Shown: positions 2,683-38,552 of the stretch, in pieces
How the letters are laid out: each line of letters starts with the position of its first letter
How positions within the stretch are numbered: position 1 is the first letter of the stretch
Source: Pelagibacterales bacterium SAG-MED50
Lineage (GTDB): Bacteria > Pseudomonadota > Alphaproteobacteria > Pelagibacterales > Pelagibacteraceae
Direction: 5' to 3'
NCBI GenBank assembly: GCA_014653385.1
Contig: JACWER010000005.1
Location: 1-64,000, forward strand
Length of the DNA: 64,000 nucleotides
Translations under genes and position numbers: made by a program
Notes under the pieces: model-generated
Databases searched by the model: none
What the model saw: only the letters and a program-made list of their open reading frames with translations
What the model was told of the DNA's origin: nothing

Positions 2683-4752
2683 ATGTCAGAATTTTTTTTA
2701 GAATTATTTAGTGAGGAAATACCTTCGTCCCTTCAAAAGAATTTAAGGGAGGATCTGTTAACTAGTTTTATTAAAGTATTTAATGAAAAATCAATTTCAT
2801 TTAAAAAAAGCTCATCATATTCAACACCGAATAGATTAGTCATTTTATTTGAAGGTTTACAAAAACAAATAGCTTTAAAATCTGAGGAAATAAAAGGTCC
2901 AAAGATAAAAGCTCCAGAAATAGCATTAGAAGGGTTTTTAAGATCAAATAATATTTCTAGAAAAGACCTTTTTAAAAAAGCATTAGATAAAGGAGAGTTT
3001 TATTTTTTTAAAACAAAATCAAGAAAACTTAATACTCAAGATTTATTAGCAGAATTAGTTCCATTAATATTGCAAAAAATTCAATGGAAAAAATCTATGA
3101 GATGGAATGATTTTAGTTTAAATTGGGGTAGACCATTAAAATCGATTCTAGCAATATTTGATAAAAAAAAATTAACTTTTAATTTTCATCATTTAACTTC
3201 ATCAAATTCAACATTTGCGGATAAAGAATTTGAGGAAAAGAAAAAAATAATTGTTGATTTTAAAGATTATAATAATTTTTTCAAAAAATTGAATATTACC
3301 ATAGATCATAATGAAAGAAAAAATTTTATAGAAAAAAAATTAAATGAAATTTTAAATAAGAAAAATATAATAATTGAAAGTAATCCTAAGTTACTTGATG
3401 AAGTTGTCGATCTAACAGATCAACCCAATGTTATATTGTGTGAGTTTGATAGAAAATTTCTAAATATTCCAAAAGAAATTTTGATAATTACTATGCAACA
3501 CCATCAAAAATACTTTCCAACTTTTGATAAAAAAGGAAATATTACAAATGAATTTTTGGTTGTAACTAATAAGAAAGATATAAATGGATTAATAAAACTT
3601 GGAAATGAAAGAGTTGTAGAAGCTAGACTAAGTGATGCTGAGTTTTTTTGGAACAAAGATAAGTCACAGAATTTAGTTAAAAGAGTTTCGATACTTAAAT
3701 CTATGAATTATTTCAAGGGACTTGGAACATATTTCGACAAAGTTCAAAGAATGAGAAAACTAGGTGGAATGCTTTCTGATGAATTATTAATTAGCAAAGA
3801 TAAAGTTGAATTATCGACATCCATTTGTAAAGTTGATCTAGTTTCAGAACTTGTCGGAGAATTTCCAGAACTTCAAGGAATTATGGGAGGTTATTTTGCG
3901 GAAGCACAGGGTTTTGAAAAAGATGTTTGTAAAGCCATCAGTGAACAATATTTACCAGCTGGACTAAATTCAAAGGTCCCTAAAAAGCCATATAGTATAG
4001 CACTATCACTAGCCGATAAAATAGACACATTAGTAGGTTTTTTTGGAATAAATCAAAAGCCAACAAGTTCAAAAGATCCATTTGCTTTAAGAAGATTATC
4101 TTTAGGGATAATTAAAACGATAGTTGAAAATAAAAAAGATTTTAAAATAAGAGATTTAATTAGTTATTCTTCTGGTTTGTACTTGGATCAAGGTTTTAAA
4201 TTTGAAAATAAATCCTTAAAAAGTGAATTATCAAATTTTTTAATGGATAGATTAAAATTTTATATGAAAGAAGAGAAAATTCGTAGTGATATTATTTTAG
4301 CCTCTTCAAGCTTTCTTAATTTAGATCAATCTGTAATTATTTTTGGCAAGGCCAAAAGTTTAAATAAGTTAATTAATAAAACTAACGGAGCAGATGTAGT
4401 TTCAAGTTACAAAAGAGCTTCAAGTATATTGGAAAGTGAGTTAAAAGATAAAAACCTTGAATTATCAAATACAACTGACCCTGGTATTTTTAAAACTGAT
4501 TTTGAGAAAAACTTATATAAAAAGATTAATGAATTAAGAAAGTATTTTCAAAATATTAACAAAGATGAGGATTTTGAACAATCCATCAATAATCTAGCTG
4601 ACTCCAAAAAAGTTATTTTTGATTTTTTTGACAATGTAATTGTTAATGAAGAGGACATCACAATAAAAAAAAACAGACTAGAACTAATCCAAATGTTATG
4701 TAAAACGTTCGATTATTATGTTAATTTTTCTTTAATCGATTCCCATCAATGA
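2683..4752 (+). CDS. glyS: Glycyl-tRNA synthetase beta subunit
   Basis: MSEFFLELFSEEIPSSLQ...; immediately follows glyQ. Confidence 0.97.
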   Translation: MSEFFLELFSEEIPSSLQKNLREDLLTSFIKVFNEKSISFKKSSSYSTPNRLVILFEGLQKQIALKSEEIKGPKIKAPEIALEGFLRSNNISRKDLFKKALDKGEFYFFKTKSRKLNTQDLLAELVPLILQKIQWKKSMRWNDFSLNWGRPLKSILAIFDKKKLTFNFHHLTSSNSTFADKEFEEKKKIIVDFKDYNNFFKKLNITIDHNERKNFIEKKLNEILNKKNIIIESNPKLLDEVVDLTDQPNVILCEFDRKFLNIPKEILIITMQHHQKYFPTFDKKGNITNEFLVVTNKKDINGLIKLGNERVVEARLSDAEFFWNKDKSQNLVKRVSILKSMNYFKGLGTYFDKVQRMRKLGGMLSDELLISKDKVELSTSICKVDLVSELVGEFPELQGIMGGYFAEAQGFEKDVCKAISEQYLPAGLNSKVPKKPYSIALSLADKIDTLVGFFGINQKPTSSKDPFALRRLSLGIIKTIVENKKDFKIRDLISYSSGLYLDQGFKFENKSLKSELSNFLMDRLKFYMKEEKIRSDIILASSSFLNLDQSVIIFGKAKSLNKLINKTNGADVVSSYKRASSILESELKDKNLELSNTTDPGIFKTDFEKNLYKKINELRKYFQNINKDEDFEQSINNLADSKKVIFDFFDNVIVNEEDITIKKNRLELIQMLCKTFDYYVNFSLIDSHQ

Positions 4753-7406
4753 AAAAACTAATTTTAAATTTTAAGTCTAAAGATAGTAAAAAAATTAAAA
4801 ACCCTAAAAACTTTTTAGGAGGCAAGGGTGCTAATTTATCTGAAATGGGAAGAATGGGTCTACCAGTTCCACCAGGATTTACAATTTCAACAAAAGTATG
4901 TGACCTTTTTTATAAAGATAAAAAAAAATTGAATTCAAATTTAGTATCTCAAATAAAAAAAGAATTAAAGATTATTGAAAAAGATGTAGGTAAAAAATTT
5001 GGTAATTTAAAGAATCCTTTATTACTCTCTGTAAGATCTGGAGCAAGAGTGTCTATGCCAGGAATGATGGACACAATTTTAAACTTAGGTTTAAATGATA
5101 AGGCTGTAACTGCCCTAGCTTTAAAAACTTCAAATGGAAGATTTGCCAAAGATAGTTATAGAAGATTTATTCAAATGTACGGTAATGTAGTAATGGGAGT
5201 TGAAGGTTATCATTTCGAGGAGTTAATTGAAAATTATAAGCTTACAAAAGGAGTTCTTTTAGATAATGATCTTGATGAAAGTGATTGGGATGGTTTAATA
5301 GCTGATTTTAAAAGAACTGTTAAAGAAAAAACTAATAAAGATTTTCCTCAAGATGTGCATCAGCAATTATTTGGTGCAATCAACGCAGTATTTTTATCTT
5401 GGGAAAGTAATAGAGCAAAAGTTTACAGAAAATTAAATCAAATCCCAGCTGAATGGGGAACAGCAGTAAATGTTCAGTCAATGGTTTTTGGTAATATGGG
5501 TGATGATTGTGCTACAGGAGTAGTATTTACAAGAAATCCTTCAAATGGAGTAAATGAAATTTATGGGGAATATCTAATTAATGCACAAGGTGAAGATGTC
5601 GTTGCTGGTACTAGAACGCCACAATACATAACTAAAAAAGCAAGACAACAGGCGAAAGTAAAAGGTCTTTCAATGGAAGAGGTTATGCCAAATGTTTACA
5701 AGCAGCTTCATAAAATTTTAAAAAAATTAGAAAAACATTATAAGGATATGCAAGATGTAGAATTTACAGTTGAAAATAAAAAACTATGGATGCTTCAAAC
5801 TAGATCTGGAAAAAGAACAGCTAAATCAGCAGTAAAGATTGCAGTTGATATGGTAAAAGAAAAATTAATTTCAAAAAAAGAAGCTGTTCTTAGGATTGAT
5901 CCCAATTCTTTAGATACATTACTTCATCCTACTTTAGATGAAAAAAGCTCAATAAATGTTATAGCTAACGGTTTGCCAGCCTCCCCAGGTGCAGCTAGTG
6001 GAAAAGTTGTTTTTACCTCTGAGGAAGCTGAAAGATTGACTGGAATGATGCAAGATACAATTTTAGTAAGAGTAGAGACATCACCAGAAGACATTCAAGG
6101 AATGCACGCAGCTAAAGGAATATTAACTGCTAGAGGAGGAATGACAAGTCATGCAGCTGTAGTTGCAAGGGGAATGGGTAGGCCTTGTGTTTCTGGTTCA
6201 AGTGAAATTGATATTAATTATGAAAACAAATCATTTAAAACTTCGTCTATAGAAATTAAGGAAGGTGATATTATAACTATTGATGGATCCACAGGCAGAG
6301 TCATTGCAGGGAGTGTTGCAACAGTTAAACCAGAAATTTCAGGTGATTTTTCTAAATTAATGTCATGGGCAGATAGTTTTAGAAAATTAAATATTAGAAC
6401 AAACTCAGAAACACCCAAAGATACAAAAACAGCTAAAGATTTTGGAGCAGAGGGAATTGGACTTTGTAGAACAGAGCATATGTTTTTTGATGAGGAAAGA
6501 ATTTTATCTGTTCGTGAAATGATTTTATCTAAAACCACAGAAGATAGAGCTAAAGCTCTTGAAAAACTTTTACCACATCAAAAAAAAGATTTTGTAGAAA
6601 TCTTTAAAATTATGAGTGGCCTACCAGTTACTGTAAGATTATTAGATCCTCCTCTACATGAGTTTTTACCTCGAACAGAAAAAGAAATAGATGAGGTAGC
6701 TAACTTAGTTAATCTTCCAGTTAAAGAGGTAGAATCTAGGATTGATGAACTTCATGAACAAAATCCAATGCTAGGTCATAGAGGTTGTAGACTTGGTATT
6801 TCTTTTCCGGAGATTTATGAAATGCAATGTAGAGCTATTTTTGAAGCATTATCTGAACTAAAAAATAAAAAAATTAAATCAGCTTTACCAGAGATTATGA
6901 TTCCTTTAGTTTCTACTGAAGCTGAAATAAAGATAATGAAAGATTTAGTAATTAATATTGCACGTGATGTTCAAAAAAAGAATAAAGTTAAAATAGAGTT
7001 TATAGTTGGAACAATGATTGAATTACCAAGAGCAGTAATAAAAGCGAAAGAAATAGCCAAACACGCAGAGTTTTTTAGTTTTGGAACTAATGATTTAACA
7101 CAAACAACATTTGGAATTAGCAGAGATGATAGTGGAAAATTCTTAAATGATTATATCGATAATAAAATATTTTCAATTGATCCATTTGTATCAATAGACG
7201 AGGGAGTTGCTGACCTAGTTGAAATTGCTGTAGAAAAAGGAAAAAGTCAAAATAAAAAATTAAAACTTGGAATTTGTGGTGAACATGGTGGAGACCCGAA
7301 GAGTATTGAATTTTGCTCTAAAGTAGGTTTAAACTATGTTTCATGTTCACCCTATAGAGTTCCAATCGCAAGATTAGCTGCCGCACAAGCAGAATTAAAA
7401 AAATAA
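4749..7406 (+). CDS. ppdK: Pyruvate, phosphate dikinase
   Basis: GGKGANLSEMGRMGLPVPPGFTIST; phospho-His region GGMTSHAAVVARGMGRPCVSG; 885 aa. Confidence 0.98.
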   Translation: MKKLILNFKSKDSKKIKNPKNFLGGKGANLSEMGRMGLPVPPGFTISTKVCDLFYKDKKKLNSNLVSQIKKELKIIEKDVGKKFGNLKNPLLLSVRSGARVSMPGMMDTILNLGLNDKAVTALALKTSNGRFAKDSYRRFIQMYGNVVMGVEGYHFEELIENYKLTKGVLLDNDLDESDWDGLIADFKRTVKEKTNKDFPQDVHQQLFGAINAVFLSWESNRAKVYRKLNQIPAEWGTAVNVQSMVFGNMGDDCATGVVFTRNPSNGVNEIYGEYLINAQGEDVVAGTRTPQYITKKARQQAKVKGLSMEEVMPNVYKQLHKILKKLEKHYKDMQDVEFTVENKKLWMLQTRSGKRTAKSAVKIAVDMVKEKLISKKEAVLRIDPNSLDTLLHPTLDEKSSINVIANGLPASPGAASGKVVFTSEEAERLTGMMQDTILVRVETSPEDIQGMHAAKGILTARGGMTSHAAVVARGMGRPCVSGSSEIDINYENKSFKTSSIEIKEGDIITIDGSTGRVIAGSVATVKPEISGDFSKLMSWADSFRKLNIRTNSETPKDTKTAKDFGAEGIGLCRTEHMFFDEERILSVREMILSKTTEDRAKALEKLLPHQKKDFVEIFKIMSGLPVTVRLLDPPLHEFLPRTEKEIDEVANLVNLPVKEVESRIDELHEQNPMLGHRGCRLGISFPEIYEMQCRAIFEALSELKNKKIKSALPEIMIPLVSTEAEIKIMKDLVINIARDVQKKNKVKIEFIVGTMIELPRAVIKAKEIAKHAEFFSFGTNDLTQTTFGISRDDSGKFLNDYIDNKIFSIDPFVSIDEGVADLVEIAVEKGKSQNKKLKLGICGEHGGDPKSIEFCSKVGLNYVSCSPYRVPIARLAAAQAELKK

Positions 7407-7421
7407 AAAATATTTTTTGAA

Positions 7422-7439
7422 TATTAGGGGCGTTCTGTT
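7422..7439. repeat. Left copy of 18-bp direct repeat (att-like): TATTAGGGGCGTTCTGTT
   Basis: Identical to 9172-9189. Confidence 0.85.
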
Positions 7440-7783
7440 TTGCCCTTAATTTTAATTAATAAAATAATATATACCTTTTTGAAAAGCTTCATTGAAGATT
7501 GAAGTAATTTTCTTTTATCATAACCCCAAACCTTAAATCTGTTTCTTGCCCATTCATCTGAATAATTAAGATAGTTTGATTTCACTATTTCAGGACTTGT
7601 ATTTAATGCTTGAGCAACCAAATTAATATCTTTTAAATCTTTATAAAGTTTCATGGCATTCATATGTCTGATTGAGTACATTGGTCTTGTTTTACCATTG
7701 AACTCTTAAAGAAATAATTCACTAGAAATTCTTACAAAGTTTTTTCTAATTCTTTTGAAAATATCTGTTAGAAGCATATCAAT
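7424..7783 (-). pseudogene. Tyrosine recombinase (phage-type integrase) C-terminal remnant
   Basis: EFNGKTRPMYSIRHMNAMKLYKDLKDINLVAQALNTSPEIVKSNY resembles the integrase R/H box and terminal Tyr; in-frame TAA at 7706-7708 with upstream in-frame MLLTDIFKRIRKNFVRISSELFL; another stop at 7784-7786. Confidence 0.7.
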
Positions 7784-7903
7784 TTAAGTAATTCCTACTC
7801 TCTAAATGACAAATAATCAATAATCCTATGTGTGATATGACAGATAAGAATTGTTTTATTTGTGAATTGTATGTAATTAATTAATAAAAACTTATACCGC
7901 AAT

Positions 7904-8920
7904 ATGAATAAAGTATTAAAATTTTCAAAATCATATGAAAATATTTTAAAAATTAAAAAAGATTTTTACGATAATAATAAAACAAATTTAAAAAATGTTA
8001 TTAAAATATATAATGAGTATAAAAAACAACCATTGAGAAAATATTGTAAAAATTGTGGTTCAAAAAAAATAAAATTATTTATTAAAAACTTTAATATACC
8101 ATATAAATTATGTTCCTCTTGTGGACATTTGAATGGAGCATATGAGGACACAGTTTTTTTTGCTAAAAAATTATATACTGAGAATGAAGGTAAAAATTAT
8201 TCAAAAAATTATTTAAACGATTTTAATAAAAGAGTTGAAAATATCTATATTCCTAAAGTTGATTTTCTAAAAAAAGTTATAAAAAAGAAGATTAATTTGC
8301 TTGACTTAGGTTGTGGTGCTGGACATTTTGTTAAAGCATTGGAACAAAAAGGAATTTCTGCCACTGGATACGATACTTCAAAAGATTTGTGTGAACTTGG
8401 AAATAAAAAATTAAAAAAAAATAAAATATATTCTATTAATTTTGAAAAAATTTATGAGATTATTAAAAATCATTCTGAATTTAACACTTTATCAATGATT
8501 GGTGTTTTAGAACATTTAACAGAACCTCATAAATTGTTAAATTCATTTAAAAAAAGTAAGATAAAATATCTTTATATTTCTGTTCCACTTTTTTCACTAT
8601 CATCCTTTTTAGCAAATTCTTTTCCTAATGTTTTTCCAAGACAATTATCGAGTGGTCATACACATTTATATACTGAAAAATCTCTGAATTATTTGGCAAA
8701 AAAACATAAACTTAAAATCATTGGAGAATATTGGTTTGGTACAGATTTTCCAGATTTAATGAGGTCATTAATAAACACAGGAAATATAATTAACAAAAAA
8801 ATTTATACTAAAGAATTGTATGAAAAGTTTTCTAAATTTATAGATGATTTACAATTTGTATTAGATAAAAATAAAGTATGTTCAGAAGTACATATGGTTT
8901 TTGAAAATAAAAATTTTTAA
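7904..8920 (+). CDS. Class I SAM-dependent methyltransferase with N-terminal Cys4 zinc-ribbon-like region
   Basis: CKNCGSKKIKLFIKNFNIPYKLCSSCGHLNG and SAM motif LLDLGCGAGHFVKALEQKGISATGYD. Confidence 0.8.
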   Translation: MNKVLKFSKSYENILKIKKDFYDNNKTNLKNVIKIYNEYKKQPLRKYCKNCGSKKIKLFIKNFNIPYKLCSSCGHLNGAYEDTVFFAKKLYTENEGKNYSKNYLNDFNKRVENIYIPKVDFLKKVIKKKINLLDLGCGAGHFVKALEQKGISATGYDTSKDLCELGNKKLKKNKIYSINFEKIYEIIKNHSEFNTLSMIGVLEHLTEPHKLLNSFKKSKIKYLYISVPLFSLSSFLANSFPNVFPRQLSSGHTHLYTEKSLNYLAKKHKLKIIGEYWFGTDFPDLMRSLINTGNIINKKIYTKELYEKFSKFIDDLQFVLDKNKVCSEVHMVFENKNF

Positions 8921-9171
8921 TAGCAAATATAAATCTAACTAAATCGTACTCTCCACATTATGAGGCCCTTCACATATGCCACTATTAAAGGTAAATTTAT
9001 TCTAATAGTTATAAAGTTATAGAGTGTGTATATTTTTAAGTATTTAGGCATAAAGTATATTCTATCACAAAATTAATTTACCCCTCTCTAGAGTCTATTT
9101 TTTTTTCAGACTTCATTGAAACTTCGTAGAGGTTTCTCAAAAAAAATTATTGGTAAATATAATATTTTGAT

Positions 9172-9189
9172 TATTAGGGGCGTTCTGTT
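9172..9189. repeat. Right copy of 18-bp direct repeat, overlapping the ssrA 3' end
   Basis: TATTAGGGGCGTTCTGTT, identical to 7422-7439. Confidence 0.85.
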
Positions 9190-9425
9190 GCCAGGTGCCC
9201 CGGACCCCGTTTACTTAATTAACAAAGTTAATTAGGCAGCAAGTGCGTAACTTTCGTTAGCAATTATAAATTAGCCCGTTACGGTGGAACAATTCCGAAC
9301 AAAAGAATAGCCTTTAGTCACCCGTCGAATCTAGTTCACCCCCATAAGTTGTAATGGTGGAGGTGGTGGGTACTGCCCCCACGTCCGCAATGGTTATTAC
9401 GAAATTCGTTTATCGTCATAGTTGG
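9177..9425 (-). ncRNA. ssrA: Circularly permuted (two-piece, alphaproteobacterial type) tmRNA; tag ANESYALAA
   Basis: Minus strand: acceptor piece GGACGTGGGGGCAGTACCCACCACCTCCACCA (3' end at 9355), short spacer, then coding piece GGGGGTGAACTAGATTCGACGGG (5' end at 9343); GGGGGTG/CACCTCC acceptor stem; tag GCTAACGAAAGTTACGCACTTGCTGCCTAA at 9261-9232; 3' segment GGGGTCCGGGGCACCTGGCAACAGAACGCCCC. The outer boundary of the acceptor piece is approximate. Confidence 0.92.
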
Positions 9426-9476
9426 AAATCCAACATTATTAATATAAAAGCATTTAAAAGAGATTCAATAAAAATC

Positions 9477-10424
9477 ATGAAATTAACTAGCGAACAAACA
9501 CAAGAGATCAAAGAACAACAGTCCCAACAGAATAAAACAAAAAGAGTAACAGCTCCTGCACTTGAAGATATTCTTTACGAAGCAATTCCGGCATTAGATC
9601 ATGGTTTTGTAAGAGTTGTTGATTATATGGGTGACGATACATCGATTGTTCAATCTGCTAGAGTTTCTTATGGGAAAGGAACTAAAAAAGTTTCAACAGA
9701 TGCGGGTTTAATTAAATATTTAATGAGACATTGGCATAGCACTCCATTTGAAATGTGTGAAATTAAATACCATGTGAAACTTCCAATTTTTATTGCTCGA
9801 CAATGGATTAGACATAGAACAGCTAATGTAAATGAATACTCAGCAAGATACTCAATTTTAGATAAAGAATTTTATTTACCAAGTGCAGAAAATTTAGCAG
9901 CCCAATCTTCAAGTAATAGGCAAGGTAGAGGAGATGTATTAGAAGGTGAACAGGCTAAAGAAGTTTTAGAACTTTTAAAAAATGATTCCGAGAGAACATA
10001 TGATAATTATGAAACTATGTTGAATGAAAGATTTGATGGTTCAACGATTGATGAAAACAAAAAAGGTTTAGCAAGAGAGCTTGCTAGAATGAATTTAACT
10101 TTAAATACTTATACACAGTGGTATTGGAAAACCGATTTATTAAACTTGATGAATTTTTTAAGATTAAGGGCTGATAGTCATGCTCAATATGAAATTAGAG
10201 TTTATGCCGATATCATGTTGGATACGGTTAAAAAATGGGTGCCAATTACCTATGATGCATTTATGGATTATAGAGTTGGCGGCACTGAAGTTTCAGCTAA
10301 AGGAAAAGCAATTATTCAAAAACTAATTAAAGGTGAAGATGTTGACGTAGATAGTTCAGGACTTTCAAAAAGAGAATGGAATGAGCTAATGATTGCTTTT
10401 GATCTTAAAGATAAGTTGATTTAA
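9477..10424 (+). CDS. thyX: FAD-dependent thymidylate synthase
   Basis: ThyX motif [15 protein letters not shown]; start taken at internal Met (MKLTSEQ...) because the upstream part of the ORF lies in the tmRNA gene. Confidence 0.95.
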
Positions 10425-37817: not shown

Positions 37818-37881
37818 AAATCCTTTATATTTGAAAAAAATGATTAATGCATTTTTTTTAGATCATGATATTATAATAATT

Positions 37882-37928
37882 GATAGTCCATCTTAGCCAT
37901 CTTTAGCTCCCGGTTTTTTTGGACTATC
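37882..37928 (+). promoter_or_regulatory. Candidate structured RNA/leader upstream of LysE-family gene
   Basis: 9-bp closing stem GATAGTCCA (37882-37890)/TGGACTATC (37920-37928), inner AGCC/GGTT pairing, locally GC-rich; ends about 10 nt before the ATG at 37938. Confidence 0.45.
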
Positions 37929-37937
37929 TTCTATAAA

Positions 37938-38552
37938 ATGTACCCCCTAAATTATTTTTTATTTTTACAAATAATTTTATTTTTATTCATCACTCCAGGT
38001 ACACCCAGAATTGTAATAATTTCTTATTCTATGAATTACGGAATTCAAAGATGTATCTGGACTGCATTAGGAGATGTGACAGCGAATATTATTCAAGCAA
38101 CTTTAGTAATTTTTGTAATAGGATCTTTTTTTGTTGATAATCCAAATTTTCTAAATATTTTTAAATGGATTGGAATAGCCTACATCTTATATCTTGCATA
38201 TGATCTTTATAAATCAAAACCAAAAGATATAAGCTCAGATAATGTTTCATCAAAAAGTTTATTCTCATTTTATAGAGATGGCTTTTTAGTTGCAGGTACA
38301 AGCCCAAAGGCTTGGATGTTTTTTCCCTTAATATTTCCTCAATTTATTGATTTTAGTGCAAATTATATTGCTCAATTTTTTATTTTGATCACAACTTATG
38401 TTGTTTTGGATTTTTTATCCTTAATTGCTTATGCAGTGCTTGCTAGAAAATTAATTATTTGGATTAAAGCTAATCCCAAAGTTATTAATACAATTTCAGC
38501 GTGCGTACTAATAATAATTGCAATTATCATAGCTTTTATTCAAAAGTATTAG
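37938..38552 (+). CDS. LysE family translocator
   Basis: FITPGTPRIVIISYSMNYGIQRCIWTALGDVTANIIQATLV; AGTSPKAWMFF. Confidence 0.85.
   Translation: MYPLNYFLFLQIILFLFITPGTPRIVIISYSMNYGIQRCIWTALGDVTANIIQATLVIFVIGSFFVDNPNFLNIFKWIGIAYILYLAYDLYKSKPKDISSDNVSSKSLFSFYRDGFLVAGTSPKAWMFFPLIFPQFIDFSANYIAQFFILITTYVVLDFLSLIAYAVLARKLIIWIKANPKVINTISACVLIIIAIIIAFIQKY

Follow-up and report, generated by a model that had tools for sequence, protein, structure and literature searches.

A probable non-autonomous gene cassette at the terminal hairpin of a permuted tmRNA gene in Pelagibacteraceae

The interval that separates ssrA from ppdK in the window (the whole 64-kb stretch of DNA analyzed here) measures 1,750 bp from core to core and is very probably a non-autonomous integrative gene cassette, which would have entered the chromosome where the permuted tmRNA gene ends in a hairpin, through site-specific recombination of the Campbell type. 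This reading is preferred because related genomes contain empty sites, junctions switch exactly at the 8-bp AACAGAAC, the tmRNA end is restored while a directly oriented, displaced copy marks the far side, and cassettes of the same type occur at several genomic sites. The element does not stand alone but belongs to a cassette family that is found both at ssrA and elsewhere in the genome.

The interval between ssrA and ppdK

Exact copies of TATTAGGGGCGTTCTGTT are present at 7422-7439 and 9172-9189, where 0.01 matches would be expected in the window by chance, and the 1.26-Mb assembly holds no further copies with up to three mismatches allowed. The initial annotation had reported this repeat and raised the question of its frequency elsewhere in the genome; both the two positions and its rarity were confirmed. 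Across the genus, the conserved part of the repeat is a 13-mer core, AACAGAACGCCCC (minus strand, 7427-7439 and 9177-9189), outside of which TAATA forms an A+T-rich flank. The right copy had been taken for the end of the ssrA coding piece, in agreement with an Rfam RF01849 match that runs from 9472 to 9173 on the minus strand; the tag peptide was read by ARAGORN as ANESYALAA. The insertion target is thus the 3' end of the coding piece and not the CCA end, the less usual part of the molecule that the initial annotation had named. In the terminal hairpin, GGGGCACCTGGCAACAGAACGCCCC in the tmRNA sense, the distally repeated part corresponds to the core plus an A+T-rich tail next to ppdK. The fold of this hairpin was not significant against shuffled sequences (z -0.54) in a calculation that does not model pseudoknots, and its role in the tmRNA is probably that of a pseudoknot. 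As in tDNA-targeted integrative islands, the interval is flanked by an RNA gene and its displaced 3' fragment in direct orientation. Elsewhere in the window, a match to the Rfam rhtB sRNA family was recorded (37866-37946, plus strand, 77.7 bits).

Table 1. Features of the ssrA–ppdK region in the window
Feature	Position	Strand	Evidence or remark
ppdK, chromosomal flank on the distal side	4749..7406	+	adjoins ssrA in empty sites
Distal attachment site, displaced tmRNA-end copy abutting ppdK	7427..7439	-	BLAST homology to empty sites starts at first base of core
85-aa ORF, probable tyrosine-recombinase C-terminal remnant	7424..7681	-	phrog_216, E=0.0084 (weak PHROG integrase match)
Arm-type repeat TTCAATGAAG, inside distal end	7487..7496	-	exact copy
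Cargo, 338-aa SAM-dependent methyltransferase	7904..8920	+	Pfam Methyltransf_23, E=1.7e-17
Arm-type repeat TTCAATGAAG, inside ssrA-proximal end, putative integrase arm site	9111..9120	-	exact copy
Permuted (two-piece) tmRNA gene ssrA	9173..9472	-	Rfam RF01849, 225.3 bits, E=5.5e-64, alphaproteobacterial
ssrA-proximal attachment site, terminal hairpin	9177..9201	-	repeat; conserved at ssrA ends across genus
thyX, chromosomal flank on the ssrA side	9480..10424	+	kept beside ssrA in relatives

The methyltransferase cargo is antisense to ssrA, as are most cassette genes, and the element terminates in ...TTAAGGGCAA on the distal side and TAATAATCAAAATATT on the ssrA side. On its minus strand the window contains exactly two exact copies of TTCAATGAAG, one within each end, and genus-wide, with up to one mismatch, this sequence is enriched on both sides of cores, at 50-100 bp on the downstream and 50-125 bp on the upstream side. 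By analogy with the lambda paradigm, the repeats may represent arm-type integrase binding sites. The final codons of the 85-aa ORF overlap the distal attachment site. An integrase remnant had been proposed at this left copy, and the proposal stands in part: the PHROG match and a sequence, YSIRHMNAM...NYL, resembling the tyrosine recombinase C-terminal box make the ORF probably such a remnant, weakly identified, whereas no Pfam model, integrase models included, reached threshold. It is distant from the genus integrases found in PF00589 and phrog_216 searches; weak remnant-like matches occur at three other loci (L049, L168, and L180) and are decayed in L049 and L180. In place of the functional tyrosine integrase of a tDNA island, the element has this 85-aa probable remnant only.

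Empty sites, junctions and cassette arrays

Flanks of ssrA were taken from relatives within the genus, 40 loci having ssrA and ppdK on one contig. The distance between the two genes ranges from 27 bp to 7.7 kb among relatives, and six of the 40 loci (L097, L076, L084, L092, L081, and L071) are empty sites with a single copy of the repeat, the core lying 27-36 bp from the ppdK stop. When the window's flanks were joined, they aligned continuously to these loci with small gaps only (1-10 bases), at 92.5% identity to L097 (genome G024), whose ppdK is 94% identical to that of the window, and at about 86% to the other five; homology of the distal flank begins at base 0 of AACAGAACGCCCC. The sites are therefore uninterrupted in the sense used for tDNA islands, with an alignment unbroken over the join. 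The 1.75-kb interval is not common to all relatives, and the empty sites together with the rarity of the repeat support the original suggestion that an element was inserted at the 3' end of the permuted tmRNA gene. In one further genome, G036 (L069 2690-2819), only a 129-bp relic remains, bounded by the ssrA core on one side and a second, degenerate core on the other, and its distal arm resembles that of the window's element.

Junctions could be followed to the base. The native, cassette-free junction between rnhA and the peroxiredoxin gene reads, for example in L490, TAGGTACACCTGGC-AACAGAAC-TGCCCTACTAA. An occupied left junction (L158) reads ...GGTGCACCTGGG-AACAGAAC-GCCCC and an occupied right junction (L156) ...GAGTCGGAC-AACAGAAC-TGCCCTTCT, with right junctions showing ...AACAGAAC-TGCCCT. 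At several loci the sequence changes over precisely at AACAGAAC, and the half-sites to its left and right are specific to the locus; their comparison indicates that both half-sites stay with the locus, while the GCCCC side comes from the element, as does the distal arm. Judged by these sequences, the junctions follow the Campbell pattern expected of site-specific recombination with an overlap of about 8 bp, and AACAGAAC would be the region of strand exchange. At rnhA/peroxiredoxin junctions of several species (L477-L490), the hairpin loop is CTGGCAACAGA or close to it, as in the tmRNA, but the stems are different; such shared loops are either old attachment sites or a common type of terminator. 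An altered ssrA 3' region (AGAAGCACGGTCTGGGGCACCGGGT or close) is seen in L073, L082, L089, and L094 and resembles cassette ends in L100 and L178, as though part of the tmRNA end had been exchanged by a crossover lying further upstream.

The specificity of the core was addressed in a sister family, among 36 ssrA loci of which 33 lie outside the window's genus. There, the tmRNA hairpin has changed to GGGAG...CTCCC, the tmRNA end being GGGAGGCACC..AACAGAAGTCTCCC, and the downstream or distal copies read AACAGAAGTCTCCC in seven of the ssrA loci examined. Since hairpin and downstream copies have changed together, the core follows the tmRNA end of the host itself.

About 140 copies of the 13-mer were found in 75 genomes of the genus, against none of a reversed control pattern, and it was absent from every genome searched in other genera. 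Loci at ssrA carry one to four exact tandem cores, all in the same orientation, and L100 carries five at a site other than ssrA. The 36 inter-core segments (median 1.1 kb) are cassettes of one or two genes, and 30 of 33 have their longest ORF in antisense to ssrA. Variable cargo is thus bounded at ssrA–ppdK by recurring direct repeats of an RNA-gene 3' end, as in additive islands, and in relatives includes type I restriction-modification proteins, DNA methylases, a trypsin-like protease, a polysaccharide lyase, methyltransferases, and exported proteins. In a large number of cassette genes, signal peptides of a similar MKKLLGIVVLGLLLSGNAYA type precede mature parts that are unrelated (L036, L072, L082, L100, L107, and L161). 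Extra cores lie between the convergent genes rnhA/peroxiredoxin and pnp/fabI, and a further core-bearing region contains an M23 peptidase gene, an HmoA-like gene, and xsc (gene names read from the sequences). One 0.69-kb cassette encoding a 140-aa membrane protein is 96-100% identical over about 685 bp in four genomes and resides at ssrA (L062), rnhA/peroxiredoxin (L160 and L156), and pnp/fabI (L179), the alignments ending at the cores. According to public records, carriers of the core are mostly single-cell genomes of Pelagibacteraceae, which makes an assembly artefact unlikely.

Source of the recombinase and competing explanations

The initial annotation had looked to occupied ssrA sites with a full integrase, and no relative with an intact one was found. 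A profile built from the recombinases of the genus gave no significant match in 193 loci that carry or flank cores, so that no integrase was found close to a core there. Matches to PF00589 and phrog_216 are mostly to a single Xer/Cre-like gene per genome of the genus, located away from ssrA; this usual tyrosine recombinase is a divergent protein of about 320 aa that is Cre-like by sequence (G000:C12:98218-98766). Canonical XerC and XerD were not detected in the genus genomes tested, and both sister-family genomes tested gave two strong Xer matches. As the element retains only a remnant and no recombinase was found near the cores of relatives, we infer that the recombinase is supplied in trans, a helper integrase being the preferred candidate.

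Viral contigs were scanned for the core with three different preceding bases, the 21-mer hairpin, the core plus arm repeat, tandem arms, and the sister-family core. A phage origin was rejected, since the viral-contig matches listed were either chance hits in unrelated contigs or tmRNA genes encoded by phages. These matches include no helper phage that has an attachment site of this kind, nor do they point to a prophage or satellite: the hairpin-bearing viral contigs listed hold phage tmRNA genes and no attachment site of the integrated type. Eight viral contigs (L657-L664) carry permuted tmRNA genes that end in the same 21-base hairpin sequence; phage genes then follow the tmRNA in seven, whereas the contig L659 stops at that point. 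With a copy of the target on a phage, cassettes could be transported from cell to cell.

It is possible, if on the unlikely side, that the interval descends from a larger autonomous phage or ICE that had its own integrase at ssrA and decayed by deletion, in which case the small size is secondary and this genome has no trans-mobilized system. The integrase-like remnant beside the distal attachment site, decayed relatives of the remnant in other genomes, and the retention of just the 129-bp relic between cores in G036 would all suit such a history. However, the integrase-less cassette found almost unchanged at three loci among four genomes shows that units of this small size are themselves mobile, and genus-wide integrase searches found no large intact version at ssrA or elsewhere. 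A role for the host's own Cre/Xer-like protein in moving the cassettes is rather improbable. Most genomes of the genus do have one divergent Cre-like recombinase where XerC and XerD were not detected, and the tested sister-family genomes have two Xer proteins, but that single recombinase may merely resolve chromosome dimers, and the arm-type repeats suggest an integrase of the lambda type. Moreover, the sister family combines XerC and XerD with cassettes at the ssrA end, so that a host protein is unlikely to be the general answer.

Exchange between short hairpin repeats by homologous recombination or gene conversion, with no site-specific recombinase, is very unlikely, since many junctions share no more than the 13-bp core and, at several loci, the change of half-sites falls exactly at AACAGAAC; what it has in its favor is that hairpins are common to several loci and that SAR11 bacteria are thought to recombine often. 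That the repeat arose by chance, the interval being ancestral DNA lost in some relatives, can draw on the shortness of the core but runs counter to the chance expectation given above and to the zero count of the control pattern in the genus. The multiple empty sites and the recurrent arrays refute it and leave it with practically no probability.

Under the preferred reading of a trans-mobilized cassette, the element would recombine at the terminal hairpin of the permuted ssrA in Campbell fashion, with strand exchange inside the 8-bp AACAGAAC and the TTCAATGAAG repeats bound as arm sites. Insertion would restore the tmRNA end and leave the displaced direct copy at the far end, the acting tyrosine recombinase now being provided in trans, and repeated insertion at one hairpin would give rise to tandem arrays of one- or two-gene cassettes. 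Because the targets are terminator-like hairpins at the 3' ends of RNA genes and convergent genes, no gene would be broken by insertion. Counting against this reading are the absence of a recombinase near the cores of the 193 loci and of a helper phage among the viral matches listed, the weak identification of the remnant, and the fact that an excised circle was not observed.

Known systems and biological meaning

For cyanobacteria with a permuted ssrA, Williams reportedly described in 2003 an element located at the 3' end that is not tRNA-like (J Bacteriol, 'Traffic at the tmRNA gene'). Integration at a coding-piece end created by gene permutation is common to both cases; here, in contrast, the ssrA is alphaproteobacterial, cassettes form arrays, and attachment sites are also found at the 3' ends of protein genes. 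In the Islander set, tmRNA genes are favored integration sites and the most enriched target, each island was required to have an integrase, and only 4 tandems of three or more occur among 3919 islands (PMC4383910). The present cassettes resemble those islands in having an RNA gene at one end, a direct displaced 3' fragment at the other, and a restored gene end; they differ in lacking a functional integrase, in forming arrays of up to four or five cores, and in targeting a non-tRNA-like end. Recurrent tRNA-end repeats bound additive islands in Methylophilaceae, as in fGI-2 of Ca. Methylopumilus (PMC10872708), where the target is tRNA-Lys rather than a permuted tmRNA; unlike fGI-2, the same cassettes here are found at unrelated loci as well, and their junctions are known to single-base resolution. 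Tycheposons are bordered by tRNA genes, carry their own tyrosine recombinase, and measure 4-200 kb (PMC10872708), and the window's element is 1.75 kb long with no recombinase.

Likeness to integrons extends to small cassettes in rows, mostly of one orientation, to shared recombination sites, and to secondary genomic sites. Unlike in integrons, the cassettes appear to carry their own 5' regions and the attachment site derives from the tmRNA end; an IntI-type integrase was not found either, core-bearing loci giving no PF00589 or integrase-profile match. A survey of SAR11 hypervariable regions found no attC sites (Wilhelm 2007, PMC2217521). What seems to be new is that integrase-less cassettes of one or two genes, their arrangement in arrays, their exchange between ssrA and the terminators of protein genes, and a core changing together with the tmRNA occur in combination.

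The co-change of the core in the sister family shows that the specificity of integration can track that end of a permuted RNA gene which is not tRNA-like. This fits the idea that what attracts integrases is the conserved 3' end of RNA genes and not the shape of a tRNA. As the cargo of relatives includes exported proteins and restriction-modification genes, the arrays may serve as a reservoir for defence and surface variation. SAR11 genomes are extremely streamlined and poor in recognizable mobile elements. Single-gene differences between close SAR11 relatives were nonetheless noted in 2007 as 'polymorphic gene indels' in Pelagibacter genomes, single-gene presence/absence differences in core regions that the cassettes resemble; the part of that study concerned with them gives no insertion mechanism and leaves the matter open (Wilhelm 2007, PMC2217521). 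The present cassettes would supply one: bounded by the tmRNA-end hairpin, they offer a concrete, testable route that may explain single-gene swapping in tiny genomes. As a tentative proposal, SAR11 may possess an integron-like cassette system unrelated to integrons, with integrase-less cassettes, attachment sites derived from the tmRNA hairpin, a trans-acting recombinase, and sites at ssrA and convergent-gene terminators. If this is true, a large share of the single-gene polymorphism in these bacteria, the most abundant in the ocean, would come from the system.
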